Of a stretch of DNA of 64,000 nt, positions 36,609 to 47,758 are shown piece after piece. Each line of letters begins with the position of its first letter. Position 1 is the stretch's first letter. The position numbers and the translations under genes are program-made. Origin of the DNA: Comamonadaceae bacterium (GTDB lineage Bacteria > Pseudomonadota > Gammaproteobacteria > Burkholderiales > Burkholderiaceae_C); the NCBI GenBank assembly GCA_947450645.1, contig CANFWH010000002.1, forward strand, positions 1 through 64,000. The letters run 5' to 3'. The notes beneath the pieces were generated by a model. That model saw only the letters and a program-made list of their open reading frames with translations, was not told where the DNA came from and ran no database searches.

Positions 36609-36938
36609 ATGAAAAAAATCCCCTTCTTCTTATTGCTCTTACTTACCCTGCTCTGTTTGCTTTGGGAGGTGTGGCTTGCACCCTTGCGCGGTGCGGGCAT
36701 GACCTCCATCTTGGTGCTCAAAATCGTGCCGCTAGCCCTTGCTGTGCGTGGCTTTGCGCAGGACCGTTTGTATACCTACAAGTGGATGAGCCTTGCCGTG
36801 TGGTTGTACTTTACCGAGGGTGTGGTTCGCGGTTGGGGTGATAAGGGGATCAGTAGCCCGTTGGCGTGGACTGAAGCGGCGCTATCAGTGCTGCTGTTTG
36901 TGGCTGTCGTGGTTCGGATCAGGCAAATTCGGCAATGA
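36609..36938 (+). CDS. DUF2069 family membrane protein
   Basis: A 109-residue protein with about four hydrophobic helices (IPFFLLLLLTLLCLLWEVWL; ILVLKIVPLALAVRG; WMSLAVWLYFTEGVVRGW; a C-terminal helix). This matches the DUF2069 family of small proteobacterial inner-membrane proteins of unknown function. It overlaps the next gene, an HMW1C-like transferase, by four bases, so they are probably cotranscribed. Confidence 0.82.
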   Translation: MKKIPFFLLLLLTLLCLLWEVWLAPLRGAGMTSILVLKIVPLALAVRGFAQDRLYTYKWMSLAVWLYFTEGVVRGWGDKGISSPLAWTEAALSVLLFVAVVVRIRQIRQ

Positions 36939-38803
36939 CAAAAGACGGGCGCACCAGTTCACCCAGCCTTGAACACTTTGAACTGCTGGTTCAAAGTCAA
37001 GACTACGAAGGTTCGCTGAGTGCGTTACTGAGCATTTTGTCTTTTGTCCGAGACCGCGAAGGCGTGATAGATGAGTTGGCAAGCGATGCATCCGATGCCC
37101 TCTTTATCGCAACACGCTTATGCAATGCTATTTCGCAACTTTTTGTTGATCGGCAGTTTTCGTTTAGCCTAGAAACATTTTTTAGCTTGATGCATTTACA
37201 GCGCTGGTATGGCTTGGTGCTTGGCTGTACGCGCACGCGTCATGCCGATGCGTCGATTCACGCGCTGTGCCAGCCCACGCCCATTGATGCGATGTGGCAC
37301 ATGCGCGAGGCTGAGTTGCAAAAATGTTTGTTCTTATGCACCGTCGAGTCTGAGCTTGCACTTGATTTTGAAGTGGCTTGGTCGGCTCACCCTAACTTGA
37401 TGGCAAGCCTCTTTTTATCGTGGCTATCCACCAGCATGATGGCCTCTCCCGCAGCTAGTCGTAAGCGTGAATTTTTATTGGCTTGGTGGCCTGCACGCTT
37501 AGCCGAAGCGACCCAATTGCACCTCGCCTATGCAGCCCTGCCGCCAGCCTACATGCTATGCAGCTATGGTTTGTTGCCCCAGCGTCATCGCATCAAACCG
37601 CAAATCAATCGCATTATTCGCGCCGTTTTATTGCAAAAAAATTTAGGTGATGTTGTTCTATCACCCCCACCCACCAACAGTGGGAGCAAGCCTGTTTTGC
37701 TGGTCATTACCGAGTGGTTTGCACCCAACTTTTCCGTCTATCGTACGCACGCAAAGACGATTGAAGCTGCCAAGCCGTTCTTTCACATTGTGGGTCTAGG
37801 TCCTAGGGGTTTAGTCACGCTAGAAGCGCAAAGCATTTTTGATGAGTACCACGACATACCAATTGATGATGTCATTGGAACGGTTGCTCACGTACGGGAA
37901 CTCGCGCACCGCATCGCACCAGACATCGTCTACTACCCTGGTGTTGGCATGTTTCCACACACCGTTTTTCTCTCCAACATTCGGCTAGCGCCCATTCAAA
38001 TCGTTTCTAACGGACACGGCGCTTCAACCTATTCACCATGTATAGATTATTTTTTGGCTGATGAAAGCTATATCAGTGGGCAAGCAGCTTTTAGCGAGGC
38101 CCTATTGCCCATACCATCGAACGCGATGGTACAAATTGCAAATGCCGATTTGCCTGCGTATTTTTTAACCTCCAAGCGCCTTATCAAACAGCGCCCCGAT
38201 ACTGTACATATCGCTGTGGCAGCGGCGTTACTCAAAATCAATCCCGCGTTATTGACGACGCTGCAAAGCATTGCAGATGCCGCGCAATTGCCTGTGCAAT
38301 TTCATTTTTTGGTGGCAGGAGCAAAGGGGCTGGCGCTTTATCGCTTGCAACAAGAAATAGACGCCGTGCTAGGTTCGCAAGCGACCGTTTACGCCGAGCA
38401 AGCCTATGCCGATTATTTGACAATTATTGCCACGTGCGATTGTTTCTTGAATCCATTCCCTTATGGCAACACCAATGGCATTGCGGACATGGCCGTACTG
38501 GGAATGCCCGGCATTTGCATGGCAGGGCCTGAATTGGCGGAACATATCGATGTGGGTATGTTCCGCCGCATTGGCATGCCTGAGTGGTGCGTCGCTTGGT
38601 CAGAGCAAGACTACATTGCCGCCGCACTGCGCATGATTGATGGACACGATGAACGCAACGCTATTGCTGAACAACTAATACAAACTCAATGCTATCGCAA
38701 GCTCTATGACAGCGAAACATCGCACGTCGTCGGCGAACGCTTGCTCGCGCTGCATGTCCAGAGACAAAGCGATAATCAAAAACTCAACGACCACACATCA
38801 TGA
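36935..38803 (+). CDS. HMW1C-like cytoplasmic protein N-glycosyltransferase (GT41 type)
   Basis: A 622-residue protein, the same size as HMW1C of Haemophilus and Actinobacillus. The N-terminal half is helical. The C-terminal GT-B part carries [19 protein letters not shown] near residue 255, [17 protein letters not shown], and [20 protein letters not shown] near residues 502-521, followed by [11 protein letters not shown] and [14 protein letters not shown]. These match the UDP-hexose-binding region of HMW1C enzymes, which attach glucose or galactose to asparagine in NxS/T sites of adhesins in the cytoplasm. No HMW1A/HMW1B adhesin genes lie nearby, so the acceptor is unknown. It overlaps DUF2069 and thyA by four bases each. 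Confidence 0.75.
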
Positions 38804-39636
38804 CTGACTCTTCTCATTATTCTGGACAGTACGAAGACTTTATGCGTCACGTGCATAACACGGGCGTGGCTAAAACCGACCGCACCGGCACGGGCACGAA
38901 AAGCGTCTTTGGCTATCAAATGCGTTTTGATTTGGCGCAAGGCTTTCCGCTGGTCACCACCAAAAAAGTTCACCTTAAATCCATCGTATACGAGCTCTTG
39001 TGGTTCCTCAAAGGATCGAGCGACAACAATTGGCTCAAGGAGCGTGGCGTTTCGATTTGGAACGAATGGGCAAAACCCGATGGCGACCTTGGCCCTGTGT
39101 ACGGCGTGCAGTGGCGCTCTTGGCCCACGCCTGACGGTGGGCATATCGACCAGATCACGGATGTCATCAACACACTGAAAACCAATCCCGATTCGCGCCG
39201 CATGATTGTGAGCGCTTGGAACGTGGCCGATCTCTCCAAAATGGCGCTGATGCCTTGCCATGCATTCTTCCAGTTTTATGTTGCACCGCCCACCGAGGCA
39301 AGCGGACGCGGCAAGCTGTCGTGCCAACTCTATCAACGTAGCGCGGACATCTTTTTAGGCGTGCCATTCAACATTGCTAGCTATGCGCTGCTCACGCACA
39401 TGGTGGCGCAACAATGCGATCTAAACGTGGGCGACTTTGTGTGGACGGGCGGCGATTGTCACATTTATAGCAATCACCACAAGCAAGTGGAATTACAACT
39501 GTCACGCACGCCATTTGCTTATCCAAAACTCAATATCAAACGCCAACCAGCGTCCATTTTTGATTACGAATTTGAAGACTTTGAATTTCTAAATTACGAG
39601 TGCCATTCTGCTATTAAAGCGCCTGTAGCGGTGTAA
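38800..39636 (+). CDS. thyA: Thymidylate synthase
   Basis: ThyA methylates dUMP to dTMP with methylene-tetrahydrofolate. The 278-residue protein has catalytic Cys153 ([10 protein letters not shown]), [20 protein letters not shown], the phosphate-binding arginine pair region ([13 protein letters not shown]), and [20 protein letters not shown]. It overlaps the upstream glycosyltransferase by four bases. folA, its usual partner, lies 6.2 kb downstream with an iron-uptake cassette between them. Confidence 0.97.
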
Positions 39637-39690: not shown

Positions 39691-41934
39691 ATGCTCAAAC
39701 ATGCAGCTCGTATCCCTTTCGCCCTTGCCCCTATTGCCTTGTGCCTAGCTCAAACAGCTTGGGCGCAAACAGCGCCTTCTGCCATCACGACGCCTGCGAC
39801 ACTACGCGAAGTGCAAGTCAATGCCACAACCGAAAGTGATAGCTTTGGCGCGAATGCTTTGTCAAATTCGCGTTTGCCTGCCGATCTAAAAGACCTCCCA
39901 CAATCCGCCGTCATCGTCAACCAAGCGCTGATGAAGTCGCAAGGCGCGACCTCGATGTCGTCCGCCCTACGCAACGTGCCTGGCCTCACCATTGGTGCAG
40001 CAGAAGGCGGGCAAATTGGTACCAACATCAACCTCAATGGTTTTTCTGCCCGTACCGATGTTTATTTGGACGGTGCGCGGGATCGTGGTCAGTACTATCG
40101 CGACACCTTTGCACTCGATAGCATTGAAGTATTGATGGGACCCTCGTCCATGCTTTTTGGTCGTGGCTCAACGGGCGGCACGATTAATCAAGTCACCAAA
40201 AAACCAAGTTTAAAAAAAGCTACCGAAGTGCAAGTGACTGCGACGAGCACGGGCATGGTGCGTACGCTGCTCGATCACAACACGCCTCTATCGGATACGT
40301 CAGCTTTTCGTGTGGCTCTGATGGAACAAAAAGGTAATGCATCGGATCGCGATCAAAGCGCTGCGCAAGACTTTGGCATTGCACCCTCCCTCAAACTGGG
40401 TATCGGTACGCCCACACAAATCACGTTTTCTGGTCTGTTGCAACACAATCATGACATGGTCGACTATGGTCTACCCAACTTAAACGGTGCGCCTGCCGCT
40501 GTTAGCCGTACGGCCGCTTATGGCAATAGCGATGACCGCACCATCTCTAATGTTGCTTCGCTGAGCGCCCTCGTTGAACACAAGCTCACCCCTCTAACCT
40601 CTGTACGAAACCAAACACAATTCAATCGCGTCGTAACTGATGCAAGAGAGACCGCGCCACAAGGCCTTGGCACACTTACAGGCGTAGGAGGAGCATTTGT
40701 GCCTTTGAGTACGGGTACAGCCGCAAGCCCTATAGCCGCGTCCTCTAATCTGCCGCTTTCGCAGCTTTATGTGCGCCAACAAAGTCATGATCGAGTCATT
40801 CAAGATCAGTCACTCTACAACCTCACCGAATTCAATACACAATTCCAAACGGGCGCCGTCAAGCATGCACTGCTGACAGGGTTTGACTTTGGATCGGAAA
40901 TCTATAACAACCAAAACTATTACAGAAACGGCAGCTGCAACGGTGTGGCTTTAAATGCCGTCGGCGCAACCACTGGATACTCAGGCTGTGTCGCCTTACT
41001 CAATCCAACCAACGCGCCAAACACCGCTCCCAGCACAGCAGGTAATTTGGCAACAGGTCAGGCGTTATCGGCTGGATTGTTTGCCAATGACACCCTAGAC
41101 CTCACACCCAAAGTCAAGCTGGTCATGGGACTGCGGCAAGATTACTATAGCGCGAACATTGGTAACTCGATACCAACTACCACACTACTAAGCTCGACCA
41201 GTCAGACCGTGAACTTCACCAGTGTGCGTGCTGGCGGCATTTATCAACCCACGACGGCGCAGTCGTATTACCTGTCGTACAGCACCTCGTTTAACCCGTC
41301 ACTCGAGCAGCTGGTGTCCACCACGGGCGGCACGCAGCCTCTGCCACCCACAGAAAACCGTGGCATCGAGACGGGCGGCAAATGGGATTTAAAAAATGGC
41401 GATTTGTCACTGACGGCGGCGGCGTTCCAAATTACGCAGTACAACGCCAGAGCGCAAGACTCTATCAATAGCGCCCTCTATACCGCAACAGGCACGGTGC
41501 AAGTGAAAGGTATGCGCATGGGTATCGCTGGCAAGCTGAACAATAAATGGCAAGTTTTTGGCGGTTATACGCGTTTAAACACTAGCATCATCAATGCCAT
41601 TGCGCCAGCTACACAGGGTAATATGCCCGCCAATACGCCAAGAGATTCGCTCAGCCTTTGGAGCACCTATAGCCTGACCAAACAATGGGAAGTGGGAGGC
41701 GGCGCAAGCTACATGTCTAGTCGGTATATGAGCAACACAGATTTGACGCAAGTTCCGTCTTACGTGCGCTGGGATGCCGTGGTGGCTTATCACCAACCCA
41801 AATATGATGTGCGCCTCAATCTCTTTAATTTAACCAACACGTATTACTGCGACGCCTTAATTCCGTCCGATGGTGGCCGCGCTGTACCAGGCCTTGGCAG
41901 GTCAGCTGCCGTGACCGTGGCGTATCGGTTTTAA
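39691..41934 (+). CDS. TonB-dependent siderophore receptor (Fiu-like)
   Basis: A 747-residue outer-membrane receptor. The signal peptide is HAARIPFALAPIALCLAQTA. The plug domain follows (LKDLPQSAVIVNQALMKSQG; GFSARTDVYLDGARDRGQYY; LFGRGSTGGTINQVTKKP), then a 22-strand barrel ending in an aromatic residue (AAVTVAYRF). The plug resembles catecholate receptors such as Fiu. It heads a Fur-controlled cluster with piuC, FTR1 and tonB-exbB-exbD, so uptake of ferric siderophore is very likely. Confidence 0.93.
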   Translation: MLKHAARIPFALAPIALCLAQTAWAQTAPSAITTPATLREVQVNATTESDSFGANALSNSRLPADLKDLPQSAVIVNQALMKSQGATSMSSALRNVPGLTIGAAEGGQIGTNINLNGFSARTDVYLDGARDRGQYYRDTFALDSIEVLMGPSSMLFGRGSTGGTINQVTKKPSLKKATEVQVTATSTGMVRTLLDHNTPLSDTSAFRVALMEQKGNASDRDQSAAQDFGIAPSLKLGIGTPTQITFSGLLQHNHDMVDYGLPNLNGAPAAVSRTAAYGNSDDRTISNVASLSALVEHKLTPLTSVRNQTQFNRVVTDARETAPQGLGTLTGVGGAFVPLSTGTAASPIAASSNLPLSQLYVRQQSHDRVIQDQSLYNLTEFNTQFQTGAVKHALLTGFDFGSEIYNNQNYYRNGSCNGVALNAVGATTGYSGCVALLNPTNAPNTAPSTAGNLATGQALSAGLFANDTLDLTPKVKLVMGLRQDYYSANIGNSIPTTTLLSSTSQTVNFTSVRAGGIYQPTTAQSYYLSYSTSFNPSLEQLVSTTGGTQPLPPTENRGIETGGKWDLKNGDLSLTAAAFQITQYNARAQDSINSALYTATGTVQVKGMRMGIAGKLNNKWQVFGGYTRLNTSIINAIAPATQGNMPANTPRDSLSLWSTYSLTKQWEVGGGASYMSSRYMSNTDLTQVPSYVRWDAVVAYHQPKYDVRLNLFNLTNTYYCDALIPSDGGRAVPGLGRSAAVTVAYRF

Positions 41935-41952
41935 GCCAAAGGAGTTCGCCGC

Positions 41953-42639
41953 ATGATCGTCTGCATTCCCAAAGTTTTATCAGCCGAGCAAGTTACCACT
42001 ATCCGCCAACACTTGTCTGCGACGGATGCACCATGGGTTGATGGCCGCGTATCAGCAGGATTTCAAGGCGCCGGGGTTAAATCGAATCAGCAAATCGATG
42101 AAGCGTCTAGCGCGGCGCACGAATGCCAGCAAATCGTCGCGGCAGCACTTGAACGCAACCCTTTGTTTATTAGCGCTGCACTGCCCAATCGGCTCTACCC
42201 GCCGATGTTCAATCGCTATAGCGAAGGCATGGGCTTTGGCCTGCACGTCGATGGTGGTGTGCGATTACACCCACACACGGGCGAAAAATTTCGCACCGAT
42301 TTATCAGCAACTTTGTTTTTAGCTGAGCCAAGCAGCTACGACGGCGGCGAGTTGCAGATGGAAGACAGTTATGGCATGCACAGTGCCAAATTAGCCGCTG
42401 GCGATATGGTGCTCTACCCAGCGACCAGCCTGCATCAGGTCACGTCGGTCACGCGCGGCACGCGCCTAGCTTGCTTTATGTGGGTGCAAAGTTTGGTCAA
42501 ATCGGACGCCAATCGCACCACACTCTTTGACTTAGACAACGCAATTCAAAAACTCAATCAAACCAACGCTGACGCCGCAGCACGGCGCAGCTTAACGGGC
42601 ATTTATCACAATTTGCTGCGTCAATGGAGCGACGTATGA
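41953..42639 (+). CDS. piuC: Fe(II)/2-oxoglutarate-dependent PKHD-type hydroxylase (PiuC)
   Basis: A 228-residue dioxygenase commonly linked to Fiu/PiuA-type receptors. Iron ligands are in GFGLHVDGGV (His98 and Asp100) and SLHQVTSVTRGTRLACFMW (His161, with the arginine for 2-oxoglutarate). The N-terminus (MIVCIPKVLSAEQVTTIRQ) is standard. AAAGGAG gives a strong ribosome site. It overlaps the next gene by four bases. The substrate in the cell is unknown. Confidence 0.93.
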   Translation: MIVCIPKVLSAEQVTTIRQHLSATDAPWVDGRVSAGFQGAGVKSNQQIDEASSAAHECQQIVAAALERNPLFISAALPNRLYPPMFNRYSEGMGFGLHVDGGVRLHPHTGEKFRTDLSATLFLAEPSSYDGGELQMEDSYGMHSAKLAAGDMVLYPATSLHQVTSVTRGTRLACFMWVQSLVKSDANRTTLFDLDNAIQKLNQTNADAAARRSLTGIYHNLLRQWSDV

Positions 42640-43253
42640 ACTACAACCAAGTTTTATATTGGATACGCAAAAGCCATGGCTGGATTGGACTGTGGGGCGC
42701 TATCTTTGGCTTGCTCTTTGGTACCAGTGGCATTTGGCTCAACCACCGAGCCACGTTGAAGCTGCCACTTGCGCAAGAGAGGACGAATGCGCAGCTCGAG
42801 CTGCCTGATCCCGCGCCCATCAATGCCAAAGAAATGAGTGCATGGCTGCAGCAGACGCTAGCGCTACCCTCCCCAGTAAACTCGGTTCGTGTCGAGCCCT
42901 CCAAGCCTCTGCCATGGGGCGAGCGCGCCATCCAGCCTGAACGATGGATCTTTAACTTTGGTGGTCCAGATAGGCTCATTCAGGCTGATTACTGGCGCGG
43001 CAATCGTTCAGTAGGGATCACCACAACGGCCAATGGTTTTATCGCCACGCTCACCAATATGCACAAGGGCACGGGTATGTCCATCCCTTGGGTTTTGCTC
43101 ATCGATAGCTGGGCAGGTAGTTTGCTTTTTCTCTCTGTCACTGGCGTTCTCTTATGGTTGCAAACCAATAAACGTCGCTGGGTCGGTCTGGGCATTTTTT
43201 CAGCAGCCACTTTGTCAATTACAGGATTGACGCTTTCAAGCATTCTTAACTAG
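42636..43253 (+). CDS. PepSY-associated TM-helix domain protein
   Basis: A 205-residue membrane protein of the short PepSY-TM family found in siderophore-receptor operons. It has an N-terminal helix (GWIGLWGAIFGLLFGTSGIW), a periplasmic region and two C-terminal helices (VLLIDSWAGSLLFLSVTGVL; FSAATLSITGLTLSSI). Related proteins are proposed to reduce ferric siderophores. The start at 42636 overlaps the piuC stop by four bases. The function is inferred mainly from context. Confidence 0.78.
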   Translation: MNYNQVLYWIRKSHGWIGLWGAIFGLLFGTSGIWLNHRATLKLPLAQERTNAQLELPDPAPINAKEMSAWLQQTLALPSPVNSVRVEPSKPLPWGERAIQPERWIFNFGGPDRLIQADYWRGNRSVGITTTANGFIATLTNMHKGTGMSIPWVLLIDSWAGSLLFLSVTGVLLWLQTNKRRWVGLGIFSAATLSITGLTLSSILN

Positions 43254-43263
43254 GAGTCCCCTC

Positions 43264-44034
43264 ATGTTCCAAACACTACTGATCTCTTTCCGCGAAGGCT
43301 TAGAAGGCTTTTTGATTGTGGCCATCGCCACCTTGTACCTGCGCCGCACAGGCCGTGAGCATTTGCTCTCCGCCGTTCGCAGTGGTCTGGCTTTATCAGT
43401 CACGCTTTGTTTGATTCTGGGCTACATCCTCTCGCGTATTGGCGAGATGTCGCCAATCGCCGCAGGTGTGATGGCCTTACTGGCGGCTGCGGCTGTGGCT
43501 TGGTGCGTCTTGCACATGATGCACGCGGGCAAAACGATGGGGCGAGAAATTGCAGCCAAATTGGAAGAGGCATCGATTCTCGATGGCTCTAAAGCGTGGC
43601 TGGCCGTGTTTGGATTTACCTTTTTTATGGTCGGACGCGAAGGCGTAGAGACAGCCACCATGATTGCATCGCTGGCTGCCAGTGACGAAATTAGCTACAT
43701 GGCATGGGGCGGCGTTGTCGGTCTTAGCCTAGCCGCCCTCGTTGCTTGGGCTTGGGTTCGTTTTGGTAAGGCCATTGATCTGGGACGATTTTTCCGCGTC
43801 ACTTCTTGGTTCCTCGCTATTTTTGCACTGCAACTTATCGTCTATGGTTTGCACGAATTTGCTGAAGCAAATGTCCTTCCGTACATTGATAATGCATGGT
43901 GGCATGCAAACACAGAGGCCTATGCTGAAGGCTTTTATGCGCAAATGTTTTCGCTTGCCTTGGTTGTTGTTCCGACTGTTTGGCTAGGCGCTCTGCAATG
44001 GCGAGATCACAAAGCAGCTCAACAGCTTTCATGA
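43264..44034 (+). CDS. FTR1-family iron permease
   Basis: A 256-residue, seven-helix inner-membrane permease. Both REGxE iron motifs are present: FREGLEGFLIVAIATLYLRR (residues 9-28) and VGREGVETATMIASL near residue 121. It probably moves ferric or ferrous iron to the cytoplasm. No EfeO/EfeB or P19 partner lies beside it, unlike classic FTR1 systems. AGGAG precedes the ATG. It overlaps tonB by four bases. Confidence 0.93.
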   Translation: MFQTLLISFREGLEGFLIVAIATLYLRRTGREHLLSAVRSGLALSVTLCLILGYILSRIGEMSPIAAGVMALLAAAAVAWCVLHMMHAGKTMGREIAAKLEEASILDGSKAWLAVFGFTFFMVGREGVETATMIASLAASDEISYMAWGGVVGLSLAALVAWAWVRFGKAIDLGRFFRVTSWFLAIFALQLIVYGLHEFAEANVLPYIDNAWWHANTEAYAEGFYAQMFSLALVVVPTVWLGALQWRDHKAAQQLS

Positions 44035-44687
44035 AATTACCCTACAGCCGTAATACCATCATTGTTGCAGCGATATTGCTGCTACATCTTGGATTGATTG
44101 CTGCCCTACAAAGCGGCTTGCTCATGCGCAAGGCCGACATCATCATTCCTGCCGAAGTACTGATGACTCTCCCCGAGCCTATAGCCACTCAAAAAAAACT
44201 GGCTATCGCTCCTGCACCAACACCACCCCAGCCCGCGCCTAAGCTACGTGCCGCAGCTGACATCACGCCGCCCGCGCCAAAAGCGCCCACTGGTACAGTT
44301 GCCCCACCTGTACCTGCGCCAGCACCTGCAGCACCCGTGGTCTCCACTACCGCCGCTGTTGCGCCGCCTGCCCCCATTTTTGCTGCGCCAATCGCTCAAG
44401 CGACTGTGCAATTGCCATCTAGCGATGCGGATTATCTGCAAAACCCAAAGCCAGCCTATCCCGCCATGAGCAAACGCCTGCATGAGCAAGGACGAACCAC
44501 CATCAAAGTGTTGATTGGCATTGATGGGTTGCCCAAACAAGCAGACATTGCCAAATCCAGCGGCTTTGACAGGCTCGATCTGGCAGCACAGAGCACCGTC
44601 ATGCGCTGGCGATTTATCCCTGGTAAACGAGGTGGCGTGCCAGAGGCCATGTGGTTTAACGTTCCCTTCAATTGGGTGCTTGACTAA
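44031..44687 (+). CDS. tonB: TonB energy-transducing protein
   Basis: A 218-residue protein with one N-terminal membrane anchor (IIVAAILLLHLGLIAALQSG), a long proline/alanine-rich spacer (PPQPAPKLRAAADITPPAPK and more) and a C-terminal TonB domain (YPAMSKRLHEQGRTTIKVLI; STVMRWRFIPGKRGG). It spans the periplasm and transmits proton-motive force from ExbB/ExbD to the receptor. The start at 44031 is inside the FTR1 stop (ATGA). Confidence 0.93.
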   Translation: MKLPYSRNTIIVAAILLLHLGLIAALQSGLLMRKADIIIPAEVLMTLPEPIATQKKLAIAPAPTPPQPAPKLRAAADITPPAPKAPTGTVAPPVPAPAPAAPVVSTTAAVAPPAPIFAAPIAQATVQLPSSDADYLQNPKPAYPAMSKRLHEQGRTTIKVLIGIDGLPKQADIAKSSGFDRLDLAAQSTVMRWRFIPGKRGGVPEAMWFNVPFNWVLD

Positions 44688-44726
44688 CTATTTTTTTAAT
44701 CATTTTTTAAAGCGGAGTCAATTTTT

Positions 44727-45413
44727 ATGAACACCCAATTTGGCCTTGCCAACGTTTGGAATCAAGGTGATGTTGTCACCAAAACAGTCGCACTCTTGTT
44801 GCTCGTCATGTCGCTGGCGTCTTGGATGGTCATTGTGATCAAAGCGTTGGACGTGATGAAGTACAAGCGCATTGCAAAAGCAGCAGAAGATTTTTGGCAT
44901 AGCGAAGACTTAGCGGCTGGCCTCACAAAATTGGGCAGCGACCCTAGCAATCCATTCAGGCAACTGGCCTTAGCGGGCCGTGAGGCGACGCTGCATCACC
45001 GCAATACCAAGGCGCACTTACATGACACCTTGGATGTCAGCGACTGGGTGACACGCACACTACGCAATGCCATTGACGAATTCACCTCCAAGCTGCAATC
45101 AGGCATGGCCATCTTGGCATCTGTCGGTTCGACTGCACCGTTCGTTGGTTTGTTTGGCACGGTCTGGGGCATCTACCACGCGCTACTCTCCATTGGCGCG
45201 GCAGGGCAAGCCACGATTGACAAGGTGGCAGGGCCTATTGGCGAGTCGCTCATCATGACGGCCCTGGGATTGGCTGTCGCTATTCCTGCGGTACTGGGCT
45301 ACAACGCTTTGGTGCGAGGCAACAAAGGTGTGCTGCAAAAACTTAATCGCTTTGCGCATGATCTGCACTCGTACTTTGTGACGGGCACGCGCATCGCCCA
45401 AGCCACAGACTAA
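44727..45413 (+). CDS. exbB: MotA/TolQ/ExbB proton channel family protein (ExbB)
   Basis: A 228-residue inner-membrane protein with three transmembrane helices. It shows VALLLLVMSLASWMVIVIKA at the N-terminus, and the family motif SVGSTAPFVGLFGTVWGIYH followed by PIGESLIMTALGLAVAIPAV. It forms the proton channel with ExbD and powers TonB. GCGGAG lies upstream of the ATG. TolQ is a relative, but the tonB context supports ExbB. Confidence 0.93.
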   Translation: MNTQFGLANVWNQGDVVTKTVALLLLVMSLASWMVIVIKALDVMKYKRIAKAAEDFWHSEDLAAGLTKLGSDPSNPFRQLALAGREATLHHRNTKAHLHDTLDVSDWVTRTLRNAIDEFTSKLQSGMAILASVGSTAPFVGLFGTVWGIYHALLSIGAAGQATIDKVAGPIGESLIMTALGLAVAIPAVLGYNALVRGNKGVLQKLNRFAHDLHSYFVTGTRIAQATD

Positions 45414-45441
45414 ATCAAACCAAAATAAACCGAGAACCACC

Positions 45442-45849
45442 ATGGCATTTGGCACACAAGACGACAGCGACGACGTGATGAACGAAATCAACATGACACC
45501 CATGGTGGACATCATGCTCGTGCTCTTGATTATTTTTATCATTACCATCCCCGTGATGAAACATACGGTGAACGTTGATTTGCCCCGTGCAACTAACGAA
45601 GCACAAAACATCAAGCCCGAAACCCTCCGATTGACCGTAGATGCGCAAGGTGCTTACTTTTTAAATGAAGCTTCTGTCACGGATGCCGATCTGCCGATGC
45701 TGCTCAAAATGGCATCTGTGCAAAACCCGCAACCTGAATTACACATTCGGGGCGACAAAAGCGTTCGCTATGAACGCGTGGCGCAAGCGATGGCCGCAGC
45801 GCAGCAAGCAGGTCTGCACAAAATCGGCTTTATTACCGAGCCCCGATAA
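45442..45849 (+). CDS. exbD: Biopolymer transport protein ExbD
   Basis: A 135-residue protein with the ExbD/TolR N-terminal pattern EINMTPMVDIMLVLLIIFII, in which the membrane aspartate carries protons, followed by a periplasmic domain (LPRATNEAQNIKPETLRLTV; RYERVAQAMAAAQQAGL). It is the last gene of the iron cassette and ends eight bases before folA. Confidence 0.94.
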   Translation: MAFGTQDDSDDVMNEINMTPMVDIMLVLLIIFIITIPVMKHTVNVDLPRATNEAQNIKPETLRLTVDAQGAYFLNEASVTDADLPMLLKMASVQNPQPELHIRGDKSVRYERVAQAMAAAQQAGLHKIGFITEPR

Positions 45850-45850
45850 T
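45845..45850 (+). promoter_or_regulatory. -10-like element for folA
   Basis: GATAAT overlaps the exbD stop and ends seven bases before the folA ATG. No Shine-Dalgarno sequence is present, so folA may have its own leaderless mRNA besides read-through from exbD. Confidence 0.3.
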
Positions 45851-45857
45851 TGGGTGC

Positions 45858-46960: not shown

Positions 46961-47758
46961 ATGCAATTTGCTACGTGGAACGTCAACTCGCTAACGGTGC
47001 GTTTGCCGCAAGTCATTGAGTGGTTGGCGGCTAATCCTGTGGATGTACTGGGCTTGCAAGAGCTCAAGATGACGGACGATAAGTTCCCCGTGCAAGCCTT
47101 ACTGGACGTGGGCTACAAGGCATCTTTCTTTGGACAAAAAACGTATAACGGTGTCGCGCTACTCACCAAAAGCGGTGCGCAAAACGTGGTGAAAAATATC
47201 CCTAGTTTTACCGACGAGCAGTCACGCGTGATTGCCGCGACTGTGCCATCCTTGCTAGGTGATGTTCGTGTGATTAACGGCTACTTCGTCAACGGCAACG
47301 CGCCAGACACAGACAAATTTGAATACAAAATGAGCTGGCTGCGCGCCATGCGTGATTACCTCCGCGCCGAGCTAGAAGCCAATCCACGTGTGGTGGTGAT
47401 GGGCGACTTCAATATCACGTTTGACGATGCGGATAGCCACGATCCTGAAGGTTTGCGTGAGACCATTCATCACACCACTGAAGAGCGCGATCACTTGAAA
47501 GCCTTACTGGCTCTGGGTTTCCATGATGCGCACCGTTTGATGCATCCTGAACTCGCTGTAGAGAAAAAAGACAAATTCTTTAGCTGGTGGGACTATCGCG
47601 ACTTTGGCTTCAAGCGTAATCGCGGGCTACGTATCGACTATGTGCTGGCAAGCGATGCACTAAAAAATCACGTGGTGTCATGCAACATTGACAAAGCGCC
47701 GCGCAAGAACGAGCGCCCTAGCGACCATACGCCTGTGGTGATGGAGCTCCATCTGTGA
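46961..47758 (+). CDS. xthA: Exodeoxyribonuclease III (AP endonuclease)
   Basis: A 265-residue base-excision-repair nuclease that nicks 5' of abasic sites and removes 3' blocks. The catalytic motifs of the exonuclease-endonuclease-phosphatase fold are visible: ATWNVNSLTVRLPQVIEWL, LGLQELKM (catalytic glutamate), VVVMGDFNIT (Asp and Asn) and RPSDHTPVVMEL (catalytic His). Length matches E. coli XthA (268). It overlaps the following gene by four bases (GTGA). Confidence 0.94.
   Translation: MQFATWNVNSLTVRLPQVIEWLAANPVDVLGLQELKMTDDKFPVQALLDVGYKASFFGQKTYNGVALLTKSGAQNVVKNIPSFTDEQSRVIAATVPSLLGDVRVINGYFVNGNAPDTDKFEYKMSWLRAMRDYLRAELEANPRVVVMGDFNITFDDADSHDPEGLRETIHHTTEERDHLKALLALGFHDAHRLMHPELAVEKKDKFFSWWDYRDFGFKRNRGLRIDYVLASDALKNHVVSCNIDKAPRKNERPSDHTPVVMELHL

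Follow-up and report, generated by a model that had tools for sequence, protein, structure and literature searches.

A divergent HMW1C-like glycosyltransferase between DUF2069 and thyA in a Comamonadaceae bacterium, with a putatively rebuilt acceptor site

Introduction

Which protein, and which site on it, would be modified by an HMW1C-like glycosyltransferase encoded between a DUF2069 gene and thyA? This is the question raised by the gene P0001 of a freshwater Comamonadaceae bacterium, found in a window of 64,000 nucleotides of contig CANFWH010000002.1 (assembly GCA_947450645.1). HMW1C-like genes have been described in two categories, one linked to two-partner secretion (TPS) genes and one isolated, and both the targets of the isolated enzymes and the choice of sites within the family were listed as open (PMC3983070). 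In one such case, ngt lies in the rimO operon while the adhesins are encoded elsewhere (PMC5303269). The initial annotation described P0001 as an orphan of an enzyme type normally found beside adhesin and TPS genes, yet this applies to only one of the two categories, and isolated genes are known (PMC3983070, PMC5303269). Since the isolated category has already been described, an orphan HMW1C-like gene is no news in itself. No paper on HMW1C in Comamonadaceae was found in the open-licence literature.

Family assignment of P0001

The reading frame of P0001 (36935..38803, + strand) starts with ATG and runs uninterrupted over 622 codons, exactly where it had been placed by the initial annotation, and all three motifs quoted there are present. 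The 622-aa product was characterised by ORF, profile, PDB and tree analysis and is named here an HMW1C-like glycosyltransferase of a divergent clade. Two Pfam domains score above their cut-offs, namely HMW1C_N (PF18071) at residues 10-141 (36962..37357, + strand; 35.5 bits, cut-off 27) and HMw1_D2 (PF18254) at residues 148-230 (37376..37624, + strand; 47.7 bits, cut-off 26.2), while Glyco_transf_41 stays below its own (20.6 bits, cut-off 25). Searching the PDB with P0001 retrieved AaNGT (8p0o, 1.7e-113, and 8p0q, 1.8e-113; residues 6-605) and ApNGT (3q3e, 1.2e-100; residues 8-593), and the homology to AaNGT is full-length at 34% identity. The kinship with HMW1C-type enzymes proposed earlier is thus upheld by both the domains and the PDB match. 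The NCBIfam NGT model NF049992 matches residues 10-605 with 451.9 bits, below its equivalog cut-off of 1000; however, this cut-off alone is not decisive, because a canonical copy in the same genome, which carries the Arg/Asp dyad discussed below, also fails it (737.5 bits), and one alignment row, L047, passes (1057.5 bits). A structure predicted from four sequences (P0001 and L038-L040) was too poor (pLDDT 43.3, pTM 0.30) to reveal a GT-B fold with AAD domain or any residues standing in for the replaced ones.

Judged by sequence and domains, P0001 is placed in the HMW1C-like subfamily of GT41. The O-GlcNAc transferase- and SPINDLY-type members of GT41 match only the C-terminal nucleotide part, and weakly (SPINDLY 0.003, 5a01 0.22); unlike these, P0001 has no TPR match and carries, ahead of the glycosyltransferase part, N-terminal domains of the all-alpha HMW1C type instead. 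The characterised enzymes AaNGT (8p0o/8p0p/8p0q) and ApNGT (3q3e) match over the full length, and residues for the pyrophosphate, the ribose and the catalytic loop are kept, whereas P0001 differs from AaNGT at R177, H214, D215, H276, T437, Q468, H494 and S495. If reading of the sequon is taken as the test, P0001 falls outside NGT in the strict sense.

Acceptor- and donor-site residues

The roles of these residues are described from AaNGT complexes in PMC10507012. The +2 Thr of the sequon is bound by R177 and D215, and the Ala mutant of either is inactive. H214 binds the +3 Thr, with an 11-fold drop in activity for H214A, while contacts to the sugar come from H276 and S277. The pyrophosphate is held by K440 and the 519-521 loop, the ribose by D524, and the uracil by H494, S495 and Y500. 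AaNGT numbering was checked on the chain, and the P0001 residues were taken from alignments; all coordinates that follow are on the + strand.

On the acceptor side, Ser167 (37433..37435) replaces the +2 reader Arg177, and Pro203-Pro204 (37541..37546) replace the sequon readers His214-Asp215. On the donor side, Phe266 (37730..37732) stands in place of the sugar contact His276 and Glu488-Gln489 (38396..38401) in place of the uracil contacts His494-Ser495; T437, a phosphate contact, has become A431, and Q468 has become G462. Gly360-His361 (38012..38017), equivalent to Gly369-His370, are kept within a loop that is otherwise changed (L368N, P371G, T373S), as are Lys434 (38234..38236), equivalent to the pyrophosphate-binding Lys440, and Thr513-Asn514-Gly515 with Asp518 (38471..38488), equivalent to T519, N520, G521 and D524. 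The initial annotation had made its assignment depend on the UDP-hexose-binding residues, and these are retained in part: H276, T437, H494 and S495 are changed, while R280, G369, H370, K440, Y500, T519, N520, G521 and D524 are kept, as is S277. Its further claim, that asparagine is glycosylated as by related enzymes, is not supported for the usual mode of recognition: P0001 has other residues in place of R177 and D215, where a change to Ala inactivates AaNGT, and in place of H214 and the sugar contact H276.

The replacements are largely shared with four paralogous proteins of the genus, referred to as C40-type after the contig of the copy in the P0001 genome. In these, R177 is replaced by T or N, D215 by Q, H276 by F and S277 by A, while H214, Q468 and H494 are kept. 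Thus, none of the five clade members has R177, D215 or H276, and all five keep K440, N520, G521, D524, R280, Y500, G369 and H370. R177, H214, D215 and H276 are kept together in 22/22 canonical-type rows of the alignment and in all three plasmid-borne Burkholderiales rows that were read (of 97 records found). Six distant superfamily rows (L022, L023, L024, L065, L066, L070), left out of the canonical count, lack D215 throughout and R177 in five cases, which shows that members of the wider superfamily do not always carry the dyad; H214 is kept in one of them. Yet all six have H276, and loss of this residue is therefore peculiar to the P0001/C40 clade among the 33 rows, the position being Phe in its five members and His in the other 28. 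A separate observation concerns the NGT homologue L069 (G1394:C1:511636-513444), which keeps R177, H214, D215 and H276 and has K440Q, N520S and D524E, a mirror image of P0001, and which possibly has an altered nucleotide site or is non-catalytic.

L069 is counted among the 22 canonical-type rows, but was left out of the set used to define invariant columns because its own nucleotide site is altered. In the remaining 21 rows, 84 columns are invariant, and the largest departure of a single canonical row from the columns invariant in the others is six (L051). Of these 84, 53 are kept by all five clade members. At another 21, every member differs from the canonical residue, and at 12 of the 21 all members share one substitute. 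The replaced columns include 177, 215 and 219 on the acceptor side, 276 and 278, and 345, 368, 371 and 373 near G369/H370. From the alignment, this looks like one shared rebuilding, in which P0001 and its paralogues have retained the nucleotide site while their acceptor and sugar site has been remade. P0001 agrees with the canonical rows at 58 of the 84 columns, its paralogues at 58-59, and P0001 is thus no more degraded at these positions than they are.

Copies, phylogeny and distribution

The P0001 genome encodes three full-length NGT-type genes, P0001 itself, the C40 copy (52% identical) and the canonical C24 copy (38%), in addition to four weaker matches. Across the five genomes of the genus, the C24 type is present in 5/5, each with the full dyad, the C40 type in 4/5 and P0001 in 1/5; the C40 type was not found in G003, a genome that is 78% complete. 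A tree of 33 rows unites P0001 with the four C40-type proteins (support 100/100) and places P0001 as their sister, on a long end branch (0.89) and with a warning of long rows from the tree program. A recent duplication of the 52% identical paralogue was considered as the origin of P0001 and rejected (p-AU 0.0035, with the long P0001 branch to be kept in mind). As the test rejects pairing P0001 with the C40 protein from the same genome, P0001 is not a fresh copy; it is an old paralogue that other genomes have lost, or else it came from a relative outside the sample.

Pairwise dN/dS values are rough because dS is near saturation (1.15-3.2), and range from 0.02 to 0.05 for the canonical copies of the genus (9/10 pairs computable), from 0.06 to 0.12 for the C40 type (6 pairs) and from 0.17 to 0.23 for P0001 against the C40 type (4 pairs). 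Constraint is clearly stronger on the canonical copies.

Beyond the genus, matches were found in 8/299 genomes at the family level (1e-50), the four outside the genus having 27-35% identity, in 9/399 at the order level (1e-80), in 6/369 at the class level and in 7/398 at the phylum level (both 1e-60), each set being a sample of a larger group. The rows read from outside the genus are of canonical or distant type by residue. Scanning named genomes with P0001 alone as query found no relative, and a scan of genome contigs of 84,980 species with two short peptide patterns from the alignment, which can miss diverged members, returned only three genus mates. None of 97 plasmid records reached 60% identity, and a search of viral contigs for further homologues gave none. 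So far, in what was searched, the clade of P0001 and C40-type proteins is confined to one genus, and no description of a clade of NGT-type enzymes without the dyad was found in the open-licence literature, which for AaNGT and ApNGT was covered from 2023 on. As for the plasmid homologues themselves, 11 of the 15 listed (97 records in all) are annotated as 'peptide transporter' or 'cobalt ABC transporter permease', apparently misnamed, and 4 are unannotated.

The other two types have surroundings of their own. The C40-type gene (L008:3517-6373 in the P0001 genome; L030, L031 and L032) follows a TctC-family (Bug-type) receptor gene after ~20-30 nt in 4/4 genomes, and this arrangement suggests an operon; the TctC protein, as a candidate acceptor, has two N-X-S/T sites in each of the four. 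By eye, the canonical loci (L009, L033-L036) are flanked on one side by genes for sugar nucleotides and surface glycans and on the other by an iron-type dehydrogenase gene. In G000 (the P0001 genome), G001 and G003, a glycosyltransferase-like gene stands next to the canonical copy, with Pfam matches that are weak and below the cut-off in the one tested.

The DUF2069/thyA locus

Upstream of P0001 lies an ORF at 36609..36938 (+ strand), for which the earlier name DUF2069 is retained, and downstream lies thyA at 38800..39636 (+ strand), recognised by eye. Both neighbours had been named correctly in position, and each overlaps P0001 by 4 nt, with ATGA at both junctions. Because ORF calling in the four other genus genomes shows the upstream gene followed directly by thyA after 2-3 nt, with no gene between them, P0001 is regarded as an addition at this point in its species. 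Compared with G003, thyA is 94% and the upstream gene 76% identical, both flanks thus being native to the genus; given this and the overlaps at both junctions, an assembly join is unlikely. Promoter and terminator searches around P0001 gave chance-level hits only. Further downstream, the interval 39691-45857 of the window holds, by eye, TonB-receptor, iron-permease-like and TonB/ExbB/ExbD genes between thyA and folA, which adjoin in G003 and G004 and are separated by other or fewer genes in G001 and G002. The surroundings of thyA look like an insertion spot. The gene at 47755, mentioned earlier as a further TPR glycosyltransferase, does combine TPR repeats with a GT9-like C-terminal part (Glyco_transf_9, 28.8 bits, cut-off 22), but belongs to a different family from P0001.

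No tpsA or tpsB adjoins P0001, as it would in the TPS-linked category; in this genome, contigs C17 and C60 carry the TPS matches, and ShlB is matched on C1. In this respect, P0001 resembles the isolated genes of A. pleuropneumoniae, H. ducreyi and K. kingae, which have no adjoining adhesin or transporter gene (PMC3983070, PMC5303269). The isolated genes described there sit near rimO or carbohydrate genes, whereas P0001 lies between DUF2069 and thyA, and unlike them it shares its genome with a canonical copy elsewhere. With the TPS-linked genes (HMW1C, EtpC, RscC and those of Burkholderiales plasmids), P0001 has in common the protein family and a genome that also encodes TpsA and TpsB. Yet the plasmid genes of Paraburkholderia and Caballeronia adjoin an ESPR or FHA-type exoprotein gene and keep the dyad, and neither applies to P0001.

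Candidate acceptors in the genome

A distant adhesin had been proposed as one possible acceptor, and the genome search did find TPS exoproteins very rich in N-X-S/T. TPS-domain matches number two in the P0001 genome, six in G002 and one in G003, with none in G001 and G004, while TpsB (ShlB) is found in 5/5 genus genomes; in G004, a start with ESPR-like sequence was seen by eye at a contig edge beside tpsB. The open frame on C17 (3050 aa) reaches the contig end and that on C60 (704 aa) is also cut, and the start of the C17 protein matches both ESPR and TPS. A 3044-aa fragment of it contains 227 N-X-S/T, and compared with 300 dipeptide-preserving shuffles, N-X-T (132 observed, 58 expected) and N-X-S (95 and 53) are in excess. 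Of the other motifs, N-X-X-T is below expectation (38 and 55) and T-X-N is also raised (85 and 57), so part of the excess may reflect strand periodicity. N-X-T was in excess in 5/5 fragments tested, drawn from nine TPS matches (z 4.2 to 11.5; N-X-S z 1.3 to 6.7), whereas ordinary window ORFs of 150 aa or more (54 in number) hold 65 N-X-S/T in 20,039 aa, not above composition. These findings make an N-X-S/T system with adhesin-type acceptors likely in the P0001 genome, and the canonical C24 enzyme would be its obvious catalyst. YadA-type adhesins or anchors gave no match at E 0.001 in 5/5 genus genomes, and no tandem repeats were found in the large exoprotein gene. On another contig (L013:5350-16924, G000:C44), one weak GT41 match of the genome is covered by a 735-aa ORF that starts with TPR, and nearby lies an Asn/Thr-rich fragment of 1434 aa, truncated where the contig stops and by eye like the C60 exoprotein.

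Possible functions of P0001

We give an even chance to the reading in which P0001 is a UDP-hexose transferase of the HMW1C-like branch with a changed acceptor. The sequence shows the homology, the residue replacements, the clade, the co-occurring canonical copy and the sequon-rich exoproteins; activity, donor, acceptor and location are our inference. P0001 would be a soluble GT-B enzyme of the HMW1C-like branch of GT41, presumably cytoplasmic, that still binds a UDP-sugar through the conserved Lys, Asp and Thr-Asn-Gly residues. Should it be active, it may transfer a hexose by an inverting route with the donor phosphate as base, as proposed for AaNGT. In this sister clade, the acceptor and sugar site would have been rebuilt. 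Having lost the donor-contacting His and the Arg/Asp pair that reads the +2 Ser/Thr, P0001 is probably not what glucosylates N-X-S/T in this cell, and the canonical copy would do so. Its own acceptor would be different, most likely another site or motif on exported proteins. Against a changed acceptor stand the changes of H494, S495 and T437 in P0001 (H494 being kept in the C40 type), its occurrence in one of five genus genomes, and a dyad that is not universal.

P0001 might instead be a non-catalytic relative that binds or chaperones exoproteins, or a decaying copy. Whether HMW1C acts as a chaperone was raised as an open question in PMC3983070, P0001 has its own changes at invariant or contact columns (H214P, Q468G, H494E), and its presence in a single genus genome would fit; however, the 622 codons are uninterrupted and overlap each neighbour by 4 nt, the nucleotide residues are kept, and P0001 retains no fewer canonical columns than its constrained paralogues do, which makes this unlikely. 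It is rather improbable that P0001, and perhaps likewise the C40 paralogue, is an extender adding a hexose to glucose placed on Asn by the canonical enzyme, which would require recognition of the sugar and not of the sequon, as its substrate would be the glucose already on Asn. HMW1C forms O-glycosidic hexose-hexose bonds as well as N-linked ones (PMC3983070), and in A. pleuropneumoniae a separate GT4 extender follows ngt (PMC5303269, PMC12159676). While a canonical copy accompanies the C40-type gene in all four genomes that have one, such co-occurrence within one genus is weak since the canonical copy is in 5/5; moreover, the donor-contacting H276 is also lost, and a glycosyltransferase-like gene, though with a weak Pfam match below the cut-off, already lies beside the canonical copy in G000, G001 and G003. 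Finally, P0001 could still be an N-X-S/T Asn glycosyltransferase in which the +2 pocket is rebuilt with other residues and the choice of site or sugar shifted, as full-length homology at 34% identity to AaNGT, the kept nucleotide loop and G369/H370, and the sequon-rich TPS exoproteins of the genome would allow. We consider this quite improbable, given that the dyad, essential in AaNGT according to the Ala mutants in PMC10507012, and H276 are replaced in 5/5 members.

As we tentatively suggest, the clade as a whole may derive from a sequon-reading Asn glucosyltransferase that was rebuilt. Its members would then be cytoplasmic enzymes glycosylating proteins by a new acceptor rule, be it another residue or another motif, alongside the canonical enzyme of the same cell. 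A natural clade in which the donor site is kept and both essential sequon readers are replaced offers a ready-made test of the rule by which sites are chosen. It also calls for caution, in that overall similarity is insufficient for naming such genes N-glucosyltransferases. If active, P0001 could provide a single-protein glycosylation tool with a different site preference.
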